Shown: piece after piece, positions 3,137 to 16,307 of the stretch
Position numbering within the stretch: position 1 is the first letter of the stretch
Layout of the letters: every line of letters begins with the position of its first letter
IMG/VR virus record: IMGVR_UViG_3300019082_000011
Coordinates: 1-25,127 of that record
Length of the DNA stretch: 25,127 nt
Reading direction: 5' to 3' (one strand)
From: a virus
Position numbers and translations under genes: made by a program
The notes under the pieces: generated by a model
Told to the model about the DNA's origin: nothing
The model's database searches: none
The model's input: the letters and a program-made list of their open reading frames with translations, nothing else

Positions 3137-3526
3137 CTAAAGGACGACGAAAGCTGCGCCTTGCTTTAGCACAAGCGTGTAAGTGTACCGTTGCAGGTTG
3201 CCCTCGGACTTTTCCTCAACGCTCTTCACAATGAGAAGCCAACCGCCATTGTACCTGGGAGTCGGACAAGTAAGCGTGACCTGCTGCCGATTCAAACTAA
3301 GCAATGGCGACACAAAATTAGTGTCCAAATTAGTTTTTGTTTGTCCTGAAACATAAAAGAACCCTTTCAGCGTCAGCGTCCGCACATCTAAGCCTTCGCT
3401 GACGACAACGCTCTGCTGACTGTCAACTTGGAAATCGGTTTCAACAATCGGGTTTTCATCGGTGATGTTCTGCGGGTTCACGGGGAAAGTAACCGTTGTA
3501 GACCCGGAGCTTATCTGCCAACTCAT
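3137..3526 (-). CDS. Distal tail-like (baseplate) protein
   Basis: This 129-residue protein starts at ATG 3526, which shares one base with the TGA of the tape measure gene (TGATG) and follows GAGGCGAT. An in-frame TTG one codon upstream (3529) is less likely. The sequence is mostly alternating beta-strand, with QNITDENPIVETDFQVDSQQ near the N-terminus and LRTLTLKGFFYVSG-like strands in the middle. Size, beta content and position directly after the tape measure gene and before the hub match distal tail (Dit-like) or small baseplate proteins that connect tube to hub. No diagnostic motif is visible, so the assignment rests mainly on gene order. The tight overlap implies translational coupling with the tape measure gene. 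Confidence 0.55.
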   Translation of the reverse strand: MSWQISSGSTTVTFPVNPQNITDENPIVETDFQVDSQQSVVVSEGLDVRTLTLKGFFYVSGQTKTNLDTNFVSPLLSLNRQQVTLTCPTPRYNGGWLLIVKSVEEKSEGNLQRYTYTLVLKQGAAFVVL

Positions 3527-4974
3527 CAAAATCGCCTCGCCAAAGCCTGCGCTGTGCCTTGATTAACGGAGTTGATCACGTCGTTTAGACCCGTGTTTCT
3601 GTCGATCTTGCCGATGTTAATGGTTGGGTTGACCGTGATGTGTTGAGTGCCGCCGCCAAGCCCGTTAACGTTCGCGTTTCCAGTGCTCCCAGAAACACCC
3701 ATCAAACTCTTGCTTAGAGGCTCAAGCTTCTGGGTCAGACTGTTCGAAAGCTCGATGCTGCTGGACACCTGCTTGTTGAACTCCTCAGCAGCGGGTGCTG
3801 CATGCGCAAAACACAAGCCCTTAAGAGCATTCGATAAGCCGCCGATAATGTCGGTAAGAGGCTTCACGGCATTCGCAACCTTGCTAACCGCAGACTCAAA
3901 AGCATCAATCGGAACCATAACGAAATCAATAGCGTCAACGAAGGCGCCCTTGAAAAAGTTAGCCACGGGTACAAGAACATCGTTCCACAGGTAACTTAGC
4001 ACGGCGCCCAAGCCGCTCCAAGCAGCCTCCAAGGAAGAAATGCAACCGGTAAAAACGGAAGACAAGAATTCGCCGAAAGGCTTGAACACGTTGTCCCACA
4101 AGAACAGGAGCGCGCCCTCAACCTCCGTCAAGGCAGTCTTGAAAGCTCCTTCCAAAACGCTTCCGACCTCGTTGATTGCGTCCCTGAAGGGTGCACAGTG
4201 CTCGTAAGCCTCGTAGAGCCCAACAGCCAAAGCGGCGACGCCAGCGATTACCAGGATAATTGGGTTAGCAGCCAAGAAATCCATGGCGGAGCCAACCGCA
4301 TCGGTTGCGGCTGAAACGGCTGAAGCAACTGCCGGGTACGTGGAAAATAACGTGTTCAGACTTGTAAACGCGCCGATGACGCCTGGGATGATCTGCAGGG
4401 AACTCATCATGATCGTGTTGTTCAGGTTCCGCTGGTCCTCGCTGACTTTTTCTTGGGCGACGCTTAACGTGTCCTGCGCGTCTTTAAGCTTCGACGCTGC
4501 GTCAGATGCCTGTTGACTGTCGTCGCCATAGTCGCTCACTGCCTTGTTGTAAGCCTGCTGAGCCAATGTAACCGCCGTTTGATCCTTCTCCAATGTCACA
4601 TGTGCCCGGTCAAGCGTAACCTCCGCGTTCTCAACGTTGCTGATGCCCATTACCAAGCTGGCAGCTGAAAGAGCAGCCATATTCATAGCCATGGCGTTAC
4701 TCTGCAGGCCACCAGTCGCAATAGCCTGATTGTCCCCGAGTGTTGCACTCGCAGAAGCCACGGAAGCTTGAGACTCAGCCGCCTCGCTGCAAGCCGAAGA
4801 AACACCCTGCATGCTACTTGACACTTCAGATGCAGCAGCTTCAGTAGAGTCAGCGGCTTCAGAAGCTCCAGATGTGATCGTAGAGAAGCATTCAGTAGCG
4901 CTGCTGCCTACGTCTTCGAAAACGCTTGACGCTTCGTCAAACGCCGTAATGTTAAACTCAACGTTGGCACTCAT
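3526..4974 (-). CDS. Tape measure protein
   Basis: This 482-residue protein sets tail length and is packed inside the tail tube. Residues 1-100 are rich in Ala, Ser and Glu with repeated coiled-coil character. Residues 100-190 are strongly helical (VTLAQQAYNKAVSDYG and following). Hydrophobic segments near residues 195-260 (SLQIIPGVIGAF, NPIILVIAGVAALAVGLYEA) and further amphipathic blocks with Trp to about 370 are typical of tape measure proteins. The C-terminus is Gly/Asn-rich and then NQGTAQALARRF. At the usual ~0.15 nm per residue the tail would be near 70 nm, which is short. Unlike most neighbours there is no clear SD before the ATG; a TATA-like box sits ~23 bases upstream instead, suggesting a leaderless transcript. 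The normally adjacent chaperone gene is separated from it by a two-gene insert. Confidence 0.85.
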   Translation of the reverse strand: MSANVEFNITAFDEASSVFEDVGSSATECFSTITSGASEAADSTEAAASEVSSSMQGVSSACSEAAESQASVASASATLGDNQAIATGGLQSNAMAMNMAALSAASLVMGISNVENAEVTLDRAHVTLEKDQTAVTLAQQAYNKAVSDYGDDSQQASDAASKLKDAQDTLSVAQEKVSEDQRNLNNTIMMSSLQIIPGVIGAFTSLNTLFSTYPAVASAVSAATDAVGSAMDFLAANPIILVIAGVAALAVGLYEAYEHCAPFRDAINEVGSVLEGAFKTALTEVEGALLFLWDNVFKPFGEFLSSVFTGCISSLEAAWSGLGAVLSYLWNDVLVPVANFFKGAFVDAIDFVMVPIDAFESAVSKVANAVKPLTDIIGGLSNALKGLCFAHAAPAAEEFNKQVSSSIELSNSLTQKLEPLSKSLMGVSGSTGNANVNGLGGGTQHITVNPTINIGKIDRNTGLNDVINSVNQGTAQALARRF

Positions 4975-5218: not shown

Positions 5219-5776
5219 TTATGGAGCGGGAAGAACGGCTGGTTTAGTTACTCTTCCATGAACCACCCTTGCCGCAACGCTTAGCCCAGCGACGACGACG
5301 GCGAAATAGAATGGCCATTCCAAGACCGCTGAAGCGCTGGCGCTCTGGCTTGAACCCTTAGGACTTATTACGGCTGAACCGTTGATTGGCAGGCTAATTC
5401 CCGCCACGAATTGCAGTATCAGGGTCAAAGCAACTAATATTACGACGAAAGCCACAACCGTGTACAAGGGTTTTTTGTATCCGAATCCAAGCAGCTGTTT
5501 TGAGTAAGATTTAGTTGGTTTTACCGCGTAGATTGTAAGTATGAGTGCGCCTGCCAGCAAAGTCAGCAAACACGCGATGTTCAAAGCCCAAATCAGGGGT
5601 ATGGAAATTGAGGTGCCGGAATGTGAAAAGTTAAAGTTGACTGGCGAAAAGTTAACTTGGACGTTCGCTGGGCTGCTAACCGTGAACTGCCACCATGGGA
5701 CAAACATTGATACGGCAATCAGGACCAAGCCTAAGATTCCAGCAGCCAACGCGATGAAGTTTATTTTGTTTTCCAT
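5219..5776 (-). CDS. Four-span membrane protein, function unknown
   Basis: This ~185-residue protein has four hydrophobic segments, counted from the ATG at 5776: about residues 7-27 (FIALAAGILGLVLIAVSMFV), 62-84, 104-124 and 155-172. A beta-like extracytoplasmic loop lies between spans 1 and 2, and a Ser-rich loop between spans 3 and 4. Upstream starts at 5785 (GTG) and 5779 (ATG) are in frame, but AAGGTGAT overlaps the GTG and sits best for the ATG at 5776. The preceding Asn-rich secreted protein ends only 10 bases upstream, so the two are probably co-expressed and may act together at the cell surface. A virion role is unlikely. A holin cannot be excluded, but the large external loop argues against it. 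Confidence 0.65.
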   Translation of the reverse strand: MENKINFIALAAGILGLVLIAVSMFVPWWQFTVSSPANVQVNFSPVNFNFSHSGTSISIPLIWALNIACLLTLLAGALILTIYAVKPTKSYSKQLLGFGYKKPLYTVVAFVVILVALTLILQFVAGISLPINGSAVISPKGSSQSASASAVLEWPFYFAVVVAGLSVAARVVHGRVTKPAVLPAP

Positions 5777-5786
5777 CATAATCACC

Positions 5787-7001
5787 TTAACTCACTAAGT
5801 TAATGTTGCCGAGATCTTGGGTCTGTGAATTTGACTGTGCCACTCCGTTTATGGTCATTGATCCACCGGATATTTCAATGTCGATTGATGTGTCACCAGC
5901 AAAATTATTTGATAAGTCACTTTTGCCCTGCGATGTCAAAGTGCCTGACACCACAACCGTGGAGCTTTGACCAGCATTGATAGTCACCGATGATGACAGG
6001 CTTACTGTCCCCAAGGTTACTTGGTTTTTGCCATCTATCAGGGTTCCGCCCATTTTGCTTATTTTTGCGGCTTGGCTGTTGCTGTTGGTTATGGTGAAAG
6101 TTAGAGTTATTTTTCCTGTTGCAGTGTTAATTTGACTGCTTGAAGTGTCTAAGGTTGGGTTGACTCCGTTCGAATTGTTGTTATTTCCGTTAGGGCTGCT
6201 GCTTGGAGAGCTAGTGTTGCTCGGGTTGCCGTTGTTGTTATTGTTAACGTACAAGCTTATCGCTTGAGGAGTGGTGATGAATACCTGCGGGTTTCCTCCC
6301 GAGGCAGTAGCTAATGTGAACGTGAATGTATCCTGAGCCTGATCAATTGATCCAGAAAGGTTAATGTTAAATGGGATTGATCCGGGGTTGAGGCCTCCCT
6401 GATCGTTCGCCGATATCTGAGTGCCGGAAGATGAGCTGCTTGTCGTTCCAGCAAAGTTAAAGGTGTAATCGTTGTTTGTGCTGAACAGCGGCTCAAGATC
6501 GTTAGGGACATTCGTCGGGGTCAAGTCTAAACTTATCTGGATGTTGTTCCCGTTTTGGTTGAGGGGACAGTTGATGTTCGCCGTCATTTCGTCCGAAACT
6601 TGGTTTCCGTTGATTTGAGCGGTAACGTCGAACTGCCCAGAGCCTCCGAAACTGCTTGTTGGGTTGTTAACAAGGGGACTATTGCTTATCACGTTTCCCG
6701 AATTGCTCAGGATGTTTCCGTTGTTATTGTTGTTGCCATTTGGGTTGTTACTGTTGCTGGGGTTCCCGTTGCCGTTGTTATTGTTGTTATTATTATTGTT
6801 ATTATTGTTGTTGTTATTGTTGTTATTATTATTGTTGTTATTGTTATTGTTCCCGTTGTTATTGGAACTAATCAAGTTCTGAAGTTGAGAAGGGATGACC
6901 AGTTGGACCAAATTGGTATGGTACATAACTAACACAGCACCAACAGGACCTAAAATGCAACCTATTGTAATTAAAGTCAGGATAACGCGAACTTTCTGCA
7001 A
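5787..7001 (-). CDS. Secreted, membrane-anchored Asn-rich protein with two beta-sandwich domains
   Basis: This 404-residue protein starts at TTG 7001, nine bases after GAGGT. Residues 7-29 form a signal or anchor segment (VILTLITIGCILGPVGAVLV). Residues 47-95 are a low-complexity Asn linker containing 26 consecutive Asn (51-76). Two beta-rich domains follow, about 118-255 and 285-404, joined by a second Asn/Ser/Pro linker. The second domain (ITLTFTITNSNSQAAKISKM, then a VTINAGQSSTVVVSG strand) resembles WHy/LEA14-type sandwiches seen in archaeal envelope proteins. The likely topology is an N-terminal anchor with the domains outside. It sits with the four-span membrane protein between the tail chaperone and tape measure genes, which are usually adjacent, so it looks like inserted cargo. 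A virion role cannot be ruled out. Confidence 0.6.
   Translation of the reverse strand: MQKVRVILTLITIGCILGPVGAVLVMYHTNLVQLVIPSQLQNLISSNNNGNNNNNNNNNNNNNNNNNNNNNNNNNNGNGNPSNSNNPNGNNNNNGNILSNSGNVISNSPLVNNPTSSFGGSGQFDVTAQINGNQVSDEMTANINCPLNQNGNNIQISLDLTPTNVPNDLEPLFSTNNDYTFNFAGTTSSSSSGTQISANDQGGLNPGSIPFNINLSGSIDQAQDTFTFTLATASGGNPQVFITTPQAISLYVNNNNNGNPSNTSSPSSSPNGNNNNSNGVNPTLDTSSSQINTATGKITLTFTITNSNSQAAKISKMGGTLIDGKNQVTLGTVSLSSSVTINAGQSSTVVVSGTLTSQGKSDLSNNFAGDTSIDIEISGGSMTINGVAQSNSQTQDLGNINLVS
6774..6851 (-). repeat. AAY triplet tract encoding 26 Asn
   Basis: Twenty-six consecutive AAC or AAT codons lie between GGG and GGC codons in the secreted Asn-rich protein. AAC and AAT are mixed, so the tract is not a pure microsatellite. 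Slippage would lengthen or shorten the linker by whole residues without breaking the frame. The antisense frames read as poly-Leu or poly-Val/Ile and are not genes. Confidence 0.9.
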
Positions 7002-7111: not shown

Positions 7112-7650
7112 TCACGGATTGCCAAGTTGACGGATTAACCTTACACCTTCCGCGAGAACCTGAATTTGGAGACGACTTAGTTTTCCAGCTTTCTCCAAGT
7201 CGTAGGCGGGGTAGTAGTGGCAGATCAGGATGAGGCTTTGAAGTTCGCCGCTGCTGTCGAGCCAGACTTGGACGTCTTCCGCTGAGGCAAAAAACTCGCG
7301 TTCAAAACCGTCTCCTGCAACACGCGACTGACATCGTAAGGCAGGGCTCTTAGCTTTTCAAGCGTTATCTCGGGGTCCACAGCAGCCAAAGACCTGAACA
7401 AAGCCTGCAAGTTCCGTTCACGAGCGTCGTCTGGGAACTTCTTTGCAATTTCGCTGATGTCGGCTTCGGACAAGAGCACGTAACGAACCACGCCGAGGCC
7501 TTCAACGAAAACAGAACGCAAATCCTTTGCTTGCCTTAAAACCTCATTGATGTTAAACTTGCCCAAGCGTTCACGCATGCGAGCTTCGTATTCCAAATAG
7601 TCTTTTTTTAACCGTTCAAAGCCTTCTTGATCAAATTCCTCTTCACTCAA
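7112..7650 (-). CDS. Tail assembly chaperone, -1 frameshift product (gpGT-like)
   Basis: Reading starts at TTG 7650, preceded by TAGGAGGT. After codon 121 the ribosome would slip back one base on TTTTTTG (7288-7294) and read 58 further codons to a TGA at 7114-7112, giving 179 residues. The extension (ASAEDVQVWLDSSG, then HYYPAYDLEKAGKLSRLQ, ending RQLGNP) is a balanced globular sequence that fills the gap left by the short product. In lambda-like phages this gene, between tail tube and tape measure, makes G and GT forms that load the tape measure protein and recruit tube subunits. Position, size and slip site all match. A downstream stimulatory structure was not identified. The frameshift is predicted, not shown. 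Confidence 0.75.
7225..7650 (-). CDS. Tail assembly chaperone, unshifted product (gpG-like)
   Basis: This is the 141-residue zero-frame product of the chaperone gene. The start is TTG 7650 with SD TAGGAGGT seven bases before it. The N-terminal half is acidic and helical (SEEEFDQEGFERLKKDYLEY), followed by a compact helical region with FPDDARERNLQALFRSLAAV. After the slip site the zero frame gives a poor, Ser/Lys-rich tail of 20 residues ending FKASS, unlike the well-formed -1 extension. It lies 69 bases after the tail tube gene. It is expected to be the more abundant form and not part of the finished virion. Confidence 0.75.
   Translation of the reverse strand: MSEEEFDQEGFERLKKDYLEYEARMRERLGKFNINEVLRQAKDLRSVFVEGLGVVRYVLLSEADISEIAKKFPDDARERNLQALFRSLAAVDPEITLEKLRALPYDVSRVLQETVLNASFLPQRKTSKSGSTAAANFKASS
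7288..7294 (-). promoter_or_regulatory. Slippery heptamer T TTT TTG for -1 frameshifting
   Basis: In the chaperone reading frame the codons are AGT TTT TTG, so the seven bases form the X XXY YYZ pattern of -1 slip sites. After slipping, the next codon is GCC and the frame stays open for 58 codons. Sites of this kind at this gene position are conserved in function across tailed phages. A weak AGAC/GTCT hairpin can be drawn just downstream, but it is too small to count as evidence. Confidence 0.7.
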
Positions 7651-7719: not shown

Positions 7720-8130
7720 TTACGAGAACGTTCCCACCGCAGATAAGATGCCTTTGGCGCTGAAGCTGTTGCTGGTTGCGCTTTTCTGATCCCACTTAAG
7801 ATCCAACTGTGTGATGACTGCGTTGCTGAAAGTGTATTTGGGGTTGCCTGTTGCTGTGCCCTTCGGCCCGACGATTATGGTAATGGCAGTTCCAGGCGTC
7901 TGCGCAAGCGTCAGCACATTGTTGTCTGTCCAGAGCTGTTCCGCTTTGATTTCTGCATGCTGATTCGTCGCCGCCAAAAGCACGGGTTGATTCGGGTTTG
8001 TTCCTCCGCAAGCGTACTCTTCGACACTGTCGTTTTTTATGCTGAAACTAGCGTTCTTCAGGTTCGCCACGGCGACTCCGTTAACTTGGACCACGCCGTT
8101 CATGCCAACAGAAAGAAAATTGCTGCTCAT
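7720..8130 (-). CDS. Major tail tube protein
   Basis: This 136-residue protein is translated from ATG 8130 behind a very strong SD (GGGAGGTGA). It begins with SSNFLSVGMNGVVQVNGVAV and continues in alternating strands to DLKWDQKSATSNSFSAKGIL. Length, beta content and the VNGVAVANLKNASFSI pattern suit single-domain tail tube proteins of the TP901-1/XkdM type, which stack as rings to build the tube. It lies directly before the chaperone gene and after the gp10-like neck gene, the standard order. No sheath gene is visible next to it, so a non-contractile tail is likely. The strong SD fits a highly expressed structural protein. Confidence 0.8.
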   Translation of the reverse strand: MSSNFLSVGMNGVVQVNGVAVANLKNASFSIKNDSVEEYACGGTNPNQPVLLAATNQHAEIKAEQLWTDNNVLTLAQTPGTAITIIVGPKGTATGNPKYTFSNAVITQLDLKWDQKSATSNSFSAKGILSAVGTFS

Positions 8131-8154: not shown

Positions 8155-8523
8155 TCAGACAATAAAGAAATTATCGCGCAACTGAACCAGGGCAGACAGC
8201 ACTTCCTGCGGAAGTTCCCCTTCATGCTGCTGAATCGACCGCGTAAGAAACAGCCGAGCAGACATGCGCGAAGTCCCAAACTCGACATAAGAAGCGTAAG
8301 AAGCTGCCGCAAAAAAAGTCACCTGGAAACTGCTGTCTTGCCGATAACCAAGCGTTGACTTAAGGAAACCCGTCCGCACAGGCACAAGAACACTGCTTGT
8401 CTCAAGCACGCGGTCAGCAACCGTCCTCATCGCGGATGCTACAGCCTCAGGGTACTGCTCAACATAGTTTTCCAGAGCAGCCGTGATCCCTTGCTGAATT
8501 GAAACCTCAATATTTACGCTCAC
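8155..8523 (-). CDS. HK97 gp10-like neck/tail completion protein
   Basis: This 122-residue protein starts at GTG 8523 behind GGGTGA. It carries the hallmark of the HK97 gp10 family: a helical N-terminal half ending in VPVRTGFLKSTLGYR, then ASYASYVEFGTSRMSARLFL near residues 75-95. Family members act at the head-tail interface during tail completion. It sits 24 bases upstream of the tail tube gene. The 193-base gap before it (8524-8716) has no recognisable gene and follows the inserted zinc-ribbon membrane protein gene. Confidence 0.8.
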   Translation of the reverse strand: MSVNIEVSIQQGITAALENYVEQYPEAVASAMRTVADRVLETSSVLVPVRTGFLKSTLGYRQDSSFQVTFFAAASYASYVEFGTSRMSARLFLTRSIQQHEGELPQEVLSALVQLRDNFFIV

Positions 8524-13939: not shown

Positions 13940-14716
13940 TTAGGCGGCAACCTTAACGAAAAAGCCCAAAGGTGAATACGCCGCCGACAGGTTCGGCCCA
14001 GTGCTCAATATGTACGCGTTTCCCGCTGGAACAGTGTTGCTTATGTACAGTGACATGCCGTAGATTGAGCCGATCACGCCGTTCTGCATTGCTCCCGGCT
14101 GCTCGCCGTACTGTGCGTACAGCGAAAACTGGGGAAGATACATGACGTCTCTGGCGTTGATTGGGTTAAGCAGGATGCTGTCGGGAATGAAGTTTTTGCC
14201 CTCGATCGCTGCTTTGCCAGCCAAGATGTCTTTGGTGCCAAGCCCACCGGTTATGGTGAACTCGGATCCCGTGGCGCCTAAGCTTTTGCCCGTTGCAGGA
14301 GTAGACGTCGCTGCGGCGGAGTCGAGAACGGTCATGCAGTCGCTGTCGATGGTGTAAGCCATGCGTCGTGCTAAGCGTCGCAGTTGATTCTCAATCACTG
14401 GAATGTAAAGGTCCTCGATGTTTTCCCGGCTGATGCGTTCGCGCAGACCCTTCTTGTACGGCGTAATTGTGATCGTGGTATAAGGCGTGAAGTCCATCTG
14501 AATCTCAGCGCCCTCGCCAACCTGGCTTATCGCAGCTGAGCGGCTGCCGTTTTCCTTAACGAAAGTAGCTGTTTTGCCAGCGACCAGCGGAAACTCAGCC
14601 AGCAATTTCTTGACGACAAGTGCGGGCATGCATAGCTCGATGATTTTGCGGTGAAGCGCGGGGTAAGCAACGCCTCCTGTGTCAACGAAAGTTAATGCGT
14701 CTCTAACGAAACTCAT
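13940..14716 (-). CDS. Major capsid protein (HK97 fold)
   Basis: This 258-residue protein has an AGGTGA SD before ATG 14716. The N-terminal arm is followed by an E-loop-like region (ATFVKENGSRSAAISQVGEG), the spine helix (RENIEDLYIPVIENQLRRLA) and an A-domain region with ILLNPINARDVMYLPQFSL and then PAGNAYILSTGPNLSAAYSP. This is the sequence pattern of phage major capsid proteins. It is at the short end of the family and lacks a long N-terminal delta domain, consistent with a separate scaffold fused to the protease upstream. The order protease/scaffold, cement, capsid is standard. Hundreds of copies would form the icosahedral shell. Confidence 0.85.
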   Translation of the reverse strand: MSFVRDALTFVDTGGVAYPALHRKIIELCMPALVVKKLLAEFPLVAGKTATFVKENGSRSAAISQVGEGAEIQMDFTPYTTITITPYKKGLRERISRENIEDLYIPVIENQLRRLARRMAYTIDSDCMTVLDSAAATSTPATGKSLGATGSEFTITGGLGTKDILAGKAAIEGKNFIPDSILLNPINARDVMYLPQFSLYAQYGEQPGAMQNGVIGSIYGMSLYISNTVPAGNAYILSTGPNLSAAYSPLGFFVKVAA

Positions 14717-14732: not shown

Positions 14733-15182
14733 TTAGGGTATGCAGTAGATCAAGGCGTAGATGACGGTGCCAGCCGTTGACGAAGCCGTTATTGCCCTGC
14801 CGATCCATTGCTCAGTTTTGTCAAGCTGCGCCTGCATGGCAGCGGTCGTGTAGGTGTCTGATGCGGGAGCCGCCATTGCGGCGACACCCTGAACTTGCCC
14901 GCTTGCGTCGCTTGCTATCCTCTGCGCCGTCGAGATGCTTCCTGAAGCCGTGACCCGCACTAAGCCTCTGCAGATAACCGTTATTGTTTTGCCTGCTGCG
15001 CCGCCTGTCAATGCCACGCCGATGACGTCTTTGCGTATGCCATCTGTTGGTTTTACCGCTGGGATGAAGCCTGGGTTGCTTATGTAGACAACTTGGCCTG
15101 CTGTGACGGTTGCTCCCGTGTCAACTTGCGCGCTGATTAGGTAGCGGTCACTTACAAGCGCGGTTGTTCCTTCTAAAGACAT
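14733..15182 (-). CDS. Capsid cement/decoration protein (DUF2190-like)
   Basis: This 149-residue protein follows AAAGGTGA and ATG 15182. It is beta-rich, with VTAGQVVYISNPGFIPAVKP and DVIGVALTGGAAGKTITVIC strands typical of DUF2190-type proteins that bind the outside of the capsid lattice. A helical insertion (TYTTAAMQAQLDKTEQWIGR) precedes the final strands. It sits between protease/scaffold and capsid genes, where decoration proteins usually lie. The alternating Gly/Ala strands and the lack of any catalytic motif support a purely structural role. Confidence 0.7.
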   Translation of the reverse strand: MSLEGTTALVSDRYLISAQVDTGATVTAGQVVYISNPGFIPAVKPTDGIRKDVIGVALTGGAAGKTITVICRGLVRVTASGSISTAQRIASDASGQVQGVAAMAAPASDTYTTAAMQAQLDKTEQWIGRAITASSTAGTVIYALIYCIP

Positions 15183-15194
15183 GCAAATTCACCT

Positions 15195-16307
15195 TTAATG
15201 GAAACCTGTGAGTTTCTTGTGTGCTTTGAGGAGGTCTTTGAACCAGTCGTAATTGCCAAGTGCATCGCGCTGCATCTCGTCCGCTGCCACTATGCCTTTG
15301 CCGCTTGCGTGTCTCGCCGAGTTGGATTGGGTTTCCTGCTTGTCGCCCTCGTCTTCGCCGTCCTGTTGGGGTTGCTGAAGCTGCTTTGAAAGCTCGCTTA
15401 TTTTGCGGCTTAAACTGCGTTTGGTGGCTTTTTTCGCCACTGCGTCTTCAAGCTCAGAGACTTTCTTTTTGAGAGCTTCAACGTCGGCTTCCGAAGTGCT
15501 TGAGTTGGTTATTTGCTTTTCGAGGTCTTGTAGCTGCTGCATGAAATCTTCGTACGTTACCTGCTTCGGCTCCTCTTCGTCTGGCGCCACGTTAACTACG
15601 CCCTGTGCCTTATGTGGAGAAGCGCCCATCTGACTGTTATGTTCAGACAAGTGCCTCACCTCTCTTGCAAACAATTTGCTTTCAGGTTCTTGCGGCCTAT
15701 GCCTAGAACCCACATCCTCGTTATCATTTTCTGATAACTGTGAATCCGCGACGGCTTTGACGATGGCGTCCCATTGGTCGCGGTTCATTGCGGCGAAGAA
15801 GCCGACAGGTTGAAACGCCGTTTCCTTGTACGCCGGGCTTGCCACGACGCTGAGCTCGCGGACTTTGGGTCGATGGATGATTTCCCAGGCGCCCGGGCAC
15901 AGGTGAACGAGCATGCCTTCCTTACGGGTTGGCCGCTTGCATTTGCTGCACTCCACGTCGTCGCTGTCCACCTGAATGCTCACATGGGTCACGTAGCCGC
16001 GAAGAATCTTCTCAATCAAGCGTTCCTCGCCGACCTCAGCGCGGAAGAGCACGCGGTCGCCGTCCCGCTTCGCCTCTGAAACCTTGCCAACAACCATCAG
16101 GGCGCTTTCGGCGTGGTCAACCCTGAGCTGTGCCCCCGCCAGGCTGGACGCTACGTACTCTAGGTCCTGCTGGGGAACCTGCCATTTGTTGGCGTTCACG
16201 CTCGTATCGATGGCTACGCCTTCAATGTTGACAAGCTTCTCGCGCAGCGCGTACTGGGCGTTGACGCCGTCCTGAGCCTTAAAAGGCACAAAATAACGAA
16301 GTTCCAT
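15195..16307 (-). CDS. Prohead serine protease fused to scaffold, with a Cys/His insertion
   Basis: The start is ATG 16307, four bases after AAGGTGAT; upstream in-frame codons to 16412 lack an SD. In the 370-residue product the protease half shows His65 (LRVDHAES), Ser110 (THVSIQV) and the RELSVVASPAY motif at 150-160, the arrangement of HK97 gp4-type prohead proteases. Between Ser110 and that motif lies C120-x2-C123...H135-x-C137, a likely zinc knuckle. Residues about 245-325 form a charged coiled coil (DFMQQLQDLEKQITN, EALKKKVSELEDAVAKK), and the end reads WFKDLLKAHKKLTGF, both typical of scaffolds. The protein should guide capsid assembly and then digest the scaffold. It lies two genes downstream of the HEPN cassette that separates it from the portal gene. 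Confidence 0.8.
   Translation of the reverse strand: MELRYFVPFKAQDGVNAQYALREKLVNIEGVAIDTSVNANKWQVPQQDLEYVASSLAGAQLRVDHAESALMVVGKVSEAKRDGDRVLFRAEVGEERLIEKILRGYVTHVSIQVDSDDVECSKCKRPTRKEGMLVHLCPGAWEIIHRPKVRELSVVASPAYKETAFQPVGFFAAMNRDQWDAIVKAVADSQLSENDNEDVGSRHRPQEPESKLFAREVRHLSEHNSQMGASPHKAQGVVNVAPDEEEPKQVTYEDFMQQLQDLEKQITNSSTSEADVEALKKKVSELEDAVAKKATKRSLSRKISELSKQLQQPQQDGEDEGDKQETQSNSARHASGKGIVAADEMQRDALGNYDWFKDLLKAHKKLTGFH

Follow-up and report, generated by a model that had tools for sequence, protein, structure and literature searches.

A predicted −1 ribosomal frameshift in a putative tail assembly chaperone gene of tailed viruses linked to Bathyarchaeia

The stretch of DNA analysed here, hereafter the window, is a 25,127-base virus record of IMG/VR (IMGVR_UViG_3300019082_000011). 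Its minus strand carries a gene with the features of a tail assembly chaperone of the lambda G/GT type: a zero-frame gene, G, followed in the −1 frame by an extension, T (Table 1). Near the 3' end of G the codons GCG AGT TTT TTG CCT contain the heptamer T TTT TTG (7294-7288) in the phase expected of a slippery site. Beyond it the zero frame runs into a 20-residue tail, PQRKTSKSGSTAAANFKASS, whereas a backward slip of one base opens 58 codons, ASAEDVQVWLDSSGELQSLILICHYYPAYDLEKAGKLSRLQIQVLAEGVRLIRQLGNP, and would yield a G-T fusion of 179 residues with a junction peptide spanning ETVLNASFLASAEDVQ. The original prediction had described a slip site near the end of G, an extension and fusion of exactly these lengths, and a poor Ser/Lys-rich zero-frame tail. 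On re-reading of the sequence, including the −1 open reading frame (ORF), its coordinates and description all proved correct, and the tail was predicted to be disordered.

The arrangement is strikingly constant among relatives. The window protein is 82-99% identical to its versions in four other IMG/VR contigs, all of which retain AGTTTTTTGCC, the zero-frame TGA and the entire −1 ORF within the limits of the contigs. A scan with the capsid protein gave 40 loci, and a profile search in the class Bathyarchaeia, covering 257 genomes, added proviruses; together, 33 loci have both domains, namely the window and 32 relatives, some near-identical pairs included. The G domains of these relatives range down to about 22% identity to that of the window, and an in-phase X XXY YYZ heptamer is found at the equivalent place in every one of the 33. 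Its variants are T TTT TTG and the corresponding forms ending in TTA, TTT or TTC, the sole other being A AAT TTT (locus L054). The T run is six to eight T long in most loci and always begins at codon position 3. If 15 divergent representatives were independent, family codon usage would let all of them write their conserved residues as NNT TTT TTN with a probability of about 7e-19; given their kinship, this figure overstates the case. Two further Thermoproteota lineages, outside Bathyarchaeia, likewise have a T domain in the −1 frame behind an in-phase heptamer, A AAT TTC in L112/L113 and C CCT TTC in L114. Relatives without a slip site, or with stops scattered through the −1 frame, had been named as findings that would speak against a frameshift. 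The site is retained in 32 of 32 relatives, each with an open, conserved −1 frame, and no locus with a T domain departs from the rule. The converse is seen in a provirus (L050/L108, contig G085:C130) in which G runs directly into the tape measure gene, overlapping it, with neither a T domain nor an in-phase heptamer; this is an apparent natural loss of domain and slip site together. Separately, one copy of the G-T region (L066, G088:C35) is interrupted by several stops and appears to belong to a decaying provirus.

The place at which the two frames can be joined is narrowly bounded. Across loci the overlap of the zero and −1 frames measures from 19 to about 106 nucleotides. The −1 frame opens only 3 nucleotides upstream of the heptamer in L028, L054, L057 and L063, and in L055 the zero frame stops 9 nucleotides after the point where the last bases of the heptamer begin. 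As these positions are homologous, the two limits pin the crossing to the heptamer. The −1 frame is also under strong purifying selection. Among five members of the clade, the proportions of synonymous (pS) and nonsynonymous (pN) change in that frame beyond the zero-frame stop are 0.74 and 0.13, and the same stretch gives the reverse pattern in the other two frames. Within the overlap, synonymous change amounts to 0.26 in the −1 frame and 0.33 in the zero frame, against 0.85 in upstream G, indicating that both frames are constrained there. The synonymous-rate analysis put forward with the original prediction thus found the constraint that a coding −1 frame requires.

Overlapping, translationally coupled genes are common in viruses, and the −1 frame could in principle be a separate gene with a start of its own, coupled to the termination of G and giving no fusion. 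Yet ATG, GTG and TTG are absent from that frame in 33 of 33 loci, from the point at which it opens until 12 codons beyond where the slip site starts, and the in-phase heptamer would be left unexplained; we regard this account as highly improbable. Slippage of RNA polymerase on the T run, producing a mixed pool of mRNAs that ribosomes then read in the ordinary way, fits the length of the run in most loci and a phenomenon known in general for T runs. It is nevertheless very unlikely, given that the start of the run is fixed at codon position 3 and that L054 (AAATTTT), L112/L113 (AAATTTC) and L114 (CCCTTTC) preserve both the X XXY YYZ pattern and its phase with no long run at all. With no −1 start codons, and with heptamers that lack a homopolymer, both separate initiation and transcriptional slippage are largely rejected.

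That one ordinary frame has been split by a sequencing or assembly error, or by decay of the gene, deserves a word because these are viral contigs from metagenomes and homopolymers are error-prone. The junction recurs, however, in tens of separate assemblies, proviruses among them, relatives 82-86% identical in protein keep both stops, and the −1 frame is under purifying selection, so that this explanation is scarcely credible.

Structural models set a confidently folded T domain apart from a zero-frame tail that is not. With G and T folded as separate chains in AlphaFold2, the T extension forms a compact four-helix fold with a mean predicted local distance difference test score (pLDDT) of 85.5. 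The model of G places a beta hairpin between helices (pLDDT 69.6), and its zero-frame tail, at a pLDDT of about 39, is disordered.

The apparent archaeal host of the original prediction gains support from proviruses in Bathyarchaeia genomes. The chaperone profile matches 8 of the 257 genomes of this class, one of them weakly. One of the matching genomes, G053, is a single contig of 2.2 Mb; its 16S gene is archaeal (1511 bits), and it carries two proviruses, both with the order tail tube, G, T, tape measure. Among host genomes, the closest relative of the window is G089:C107, a contig of only 9.4 kb that is collinear with it over seven genes. The window virus therefore very probably has a bathyarchaeon as its host. 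A scan of genome contigs with the fusion as query gave no match, and a scan with the capsid alignment found a sole relative, in the Candidatus Bathyarchaeota genome SRBZ_4 (L048). At 14928-15475 this provirus carries an unrelated candidate chaperone: its first ORF has A AAA AAC in phase close to its end, and another ORF lies in the −1 frame. An early ATG in that frame makes separate initiation possible there.

Taken together, these data point, with a probability that we put at roughly 0.9, to a tailed virus of Bathyarchaeia with a tail assembly chaperone gene that is decoded in two ways by a −1 slip at the heptamer. Most ribosomes would stay in the zero frame, giving a G-like protein of 141 residues that ends in a short disordered tail. 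A smaller fraction would slip back one base on U UUU UUG, with UUU and UUG re-pairing as UUU and UUU, and would make the 179-residue fusion with its compact helical T domain. By analogy with lambda, G would coat the tape measure protein, T would recruit tail tube subunits, and the efficiency of the shift would govern the GT:G ratio.

Several points weigh against this interpretation. The frameshift is predicted from sequence comparison, and the host is deduced from relatives, the window being a contig of viral DNA. Pfam and PHROG scans of G, T and the fusion gave no significant match to a chaperone family, and fold searches of G and T returned weak matches only, with no significant named chaperone family. 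As a group, minimum-free-energy folds of the 50-100 nucleotides downstream of the site in 22 loci are no more stable than dinucleotide shuffles, their z-scores scattering around zero (pseudoknots lie outside the model), and the consensus fold downstream of the site lacks covariation support (covariation term 0.14).

The profile search that the original prediction had proposed was thus fruitless. The best match in the family, to Phage_TAC_7 (E, 41 or 14), came from one of 11 members at E = 0.038, far from significant. The fold search of G had 2ob9 (HK97, template modelling score up to 0.47) and 3klu (YqbN) among its PDB matches, at non-significant E-values of 4.2 and 2.3, and its viral matches included several annotated tail assembly chaperones, none of them significant. 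No match was obtained in a sequence profile search of the PDB, nor did tblastn with the fusion and with the capsid protein against 50,697 phage records yield any hit. It is accordingly by position, architecture and the frameshift, not by sequence homology, that the gene is named a chaperone.

As for stimulatory elements, a Shine-Dalgarno-like stimulator upstream of the site was looked for by eye, and the purine-rich stretches present in some loci are not conserved. As these searches gave no RNA stimulator, the heptamer probably acts for the most part by itself, in keeping with reports on phage P2, in which frameshifting at TTTTTTG is described without a downstream structure (PMC3091744).

Table 1. 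Features of the chaperone region in the window
Feature	Position	Strand	Basis and remarks
Zero-frame chaperone gene (G-like)	7225..7650	minus	TTG start 7650, TGA stop 7227-7225, 141 residues; ORF, translation, conserved in relatives
Slippery heptamer T TTT TTG	7288..7294	minus	X XXY YYZ phase with G frame; sequence, same phase and position in 32 relatives
−1 frame T-like extension	7112..7288	minus	58 codons + TGA 7114-7112; translation, selection, predicted four-helix domain
Zero-frame tail overlapping −1 frame	7225..7287	minus	20 codons + stop; predicted disordered, reduced synonymous change in overlap
GTGA at end of −1 ORF	7112..7115	minus	4-nucleotide overlap with tape measure start in relatives; apparently a relic in the window
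Two inserted genes (5219-5785, 5787-7001)	5219..7001	minus	ORFs; not at equivalent place in L003, L005, L006, L106
Tape measure protein gene	3526..4974	minus	Tape-measure PHROG matches, 1.9e-14 and weaker
Candidate tail tube protein gene	7720..8130	minus	ORF; position, stays beside G in relatives; no significant profile match
HK97-gp10-like gene	8155-8523		Upstream of G; PF04883

The gene had been placed between those for the tail tube and the tape measure. Its position bears this out in order, except that it does not adjoin the tape measure gene, two extra genes lying between them. In most relatives the T extension and the tape measure gene abut, and in 17 loci the −1 stop overlaps the tape measure start by 4 nucleotides; the overlapping bases in L003 and L005 are GTGA and ATGA. 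Because the window keeps a GTGA at this place even though T is now distant from the tape measure gene, later insertion best explains the distance. More widely, the regions on either side of the chaperone gene resemble a hotspot for insertions (window 5219-7001; L003 4417-4929; L004 4186-4942; L005 3654-4701). In L003 and L004, inverted genes with a hydrophobic N-terminus sit between tail tube and G, and L004 also has a duplicated 5' piece of G. Two genes in L005 resemble, by eye, a membrane transporter component and an FmdE-like protein. L005 (149-1048) and the window (13940-14716) have clearly different major capsid proteins in spite of their common tail module, a sign of exchange between head and tail modules.

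The shift site of lambda is G GGA AAG, as opposed to T TTT TTN here, and no sequence relation between lambda G/GT and the window family is detectable. The G/GT design claimed for this gene, which is well established among bacterial phages, is supported by the in-phase heptamer near the 3' end of G, the −1 domain without a start of its own and the gene position. In lambda, too, the gene is flanked by those for tail tube and tape measure, the T domain lies in the −1 frame and lacks a start, and the zero-frame tail is short (PMC5009743). Closer in its slip site is the E/E+E' pair of P2, which shifts by −1 at the identical TTTTTTG and also lacks a downstream hairpin (PMC3091744); the host belongs to another domain. 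Among archaeal tailed viruses, a −1 G-T frameshift has been predicted for HVTV-1 and HCTV-1, -2 and -5, whose hosts are haloarchaea; a +1 G-T frameshift has been predicted for HSTV-2 (PMC5009743, PMC8211752). The extension of the G/GT design to an archaeal virus, as originally proposed, therefore stands as to the design and is not new, these haloviruses having come before. A 2021 review of archaeal recoding (PMC8211752) lists the Saccharolobus fucosidase as the one −1 frameshift studied so far, alongside a few G-T sites predicted in haloviruses, and the word frameshift is absent from the main text of two papers on Bathyarchaeia viruses (PMC10848311, PMC11705971). Within the literature searched, the mechanism is thus already known, and novelty appears to lie in the protein family, the lineage of the hosts and the U-rich sites in archaea.

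A further candidate was encountered in the Methanobacterium virus Drs3 (L118, MH674343, 23208-23908). There, a gene annotated as 'prominin' precedes the tape measure gene, and behind it the +1 frame holds an ORF missing from the annotation (...FLKTDEGREIIWLDYCGYHLCDRQADLTPLQSYFISKGRLDLYNEMNKVK) that contains no ATG, GTG or TTG. We consider it a candidate +1 G/T frameshift in a virus of a methanogen.

The composition of the slip sites touches on tRNA modification in the host. The A-site codon at the shift site is always UUN, mostly preceded by UUU. TYW1, the first committed enzyme in the synthesis of wyosine for position 37 of tRNA-Phe, scores above the curated cut-off in all seven host genomes tested. 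Reportedly, −1 frameshifting is prevented by wyosine derivatives at this position, where Haloferax volcanii carries m1G only (PMC7761594). A UUU-based site in wyosine-capable hosts may either be tolerated at a low level of shifting, as G/GT needs, or be tuned by the modification. That the virus depends on, or senses, the modification state of tRNA-Phe to set its GT:G ratio is a tentative idea that we hold to be unlikely; the base composition of the host would be a simpler reason for U-rich sites.

The T domain has no start codon of its own and is missed by ordinary gene calling, a point of importance for annotation. The family described here adds tens of comparatively supported −1 sites in viruses and proviruses of Thermoproteota. 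With its natural heptamer variants and its natural loss of the site, it makes archaeal −1 frameshifting, including that at U-rich sites in wyosine-capable hosts, directly testable.
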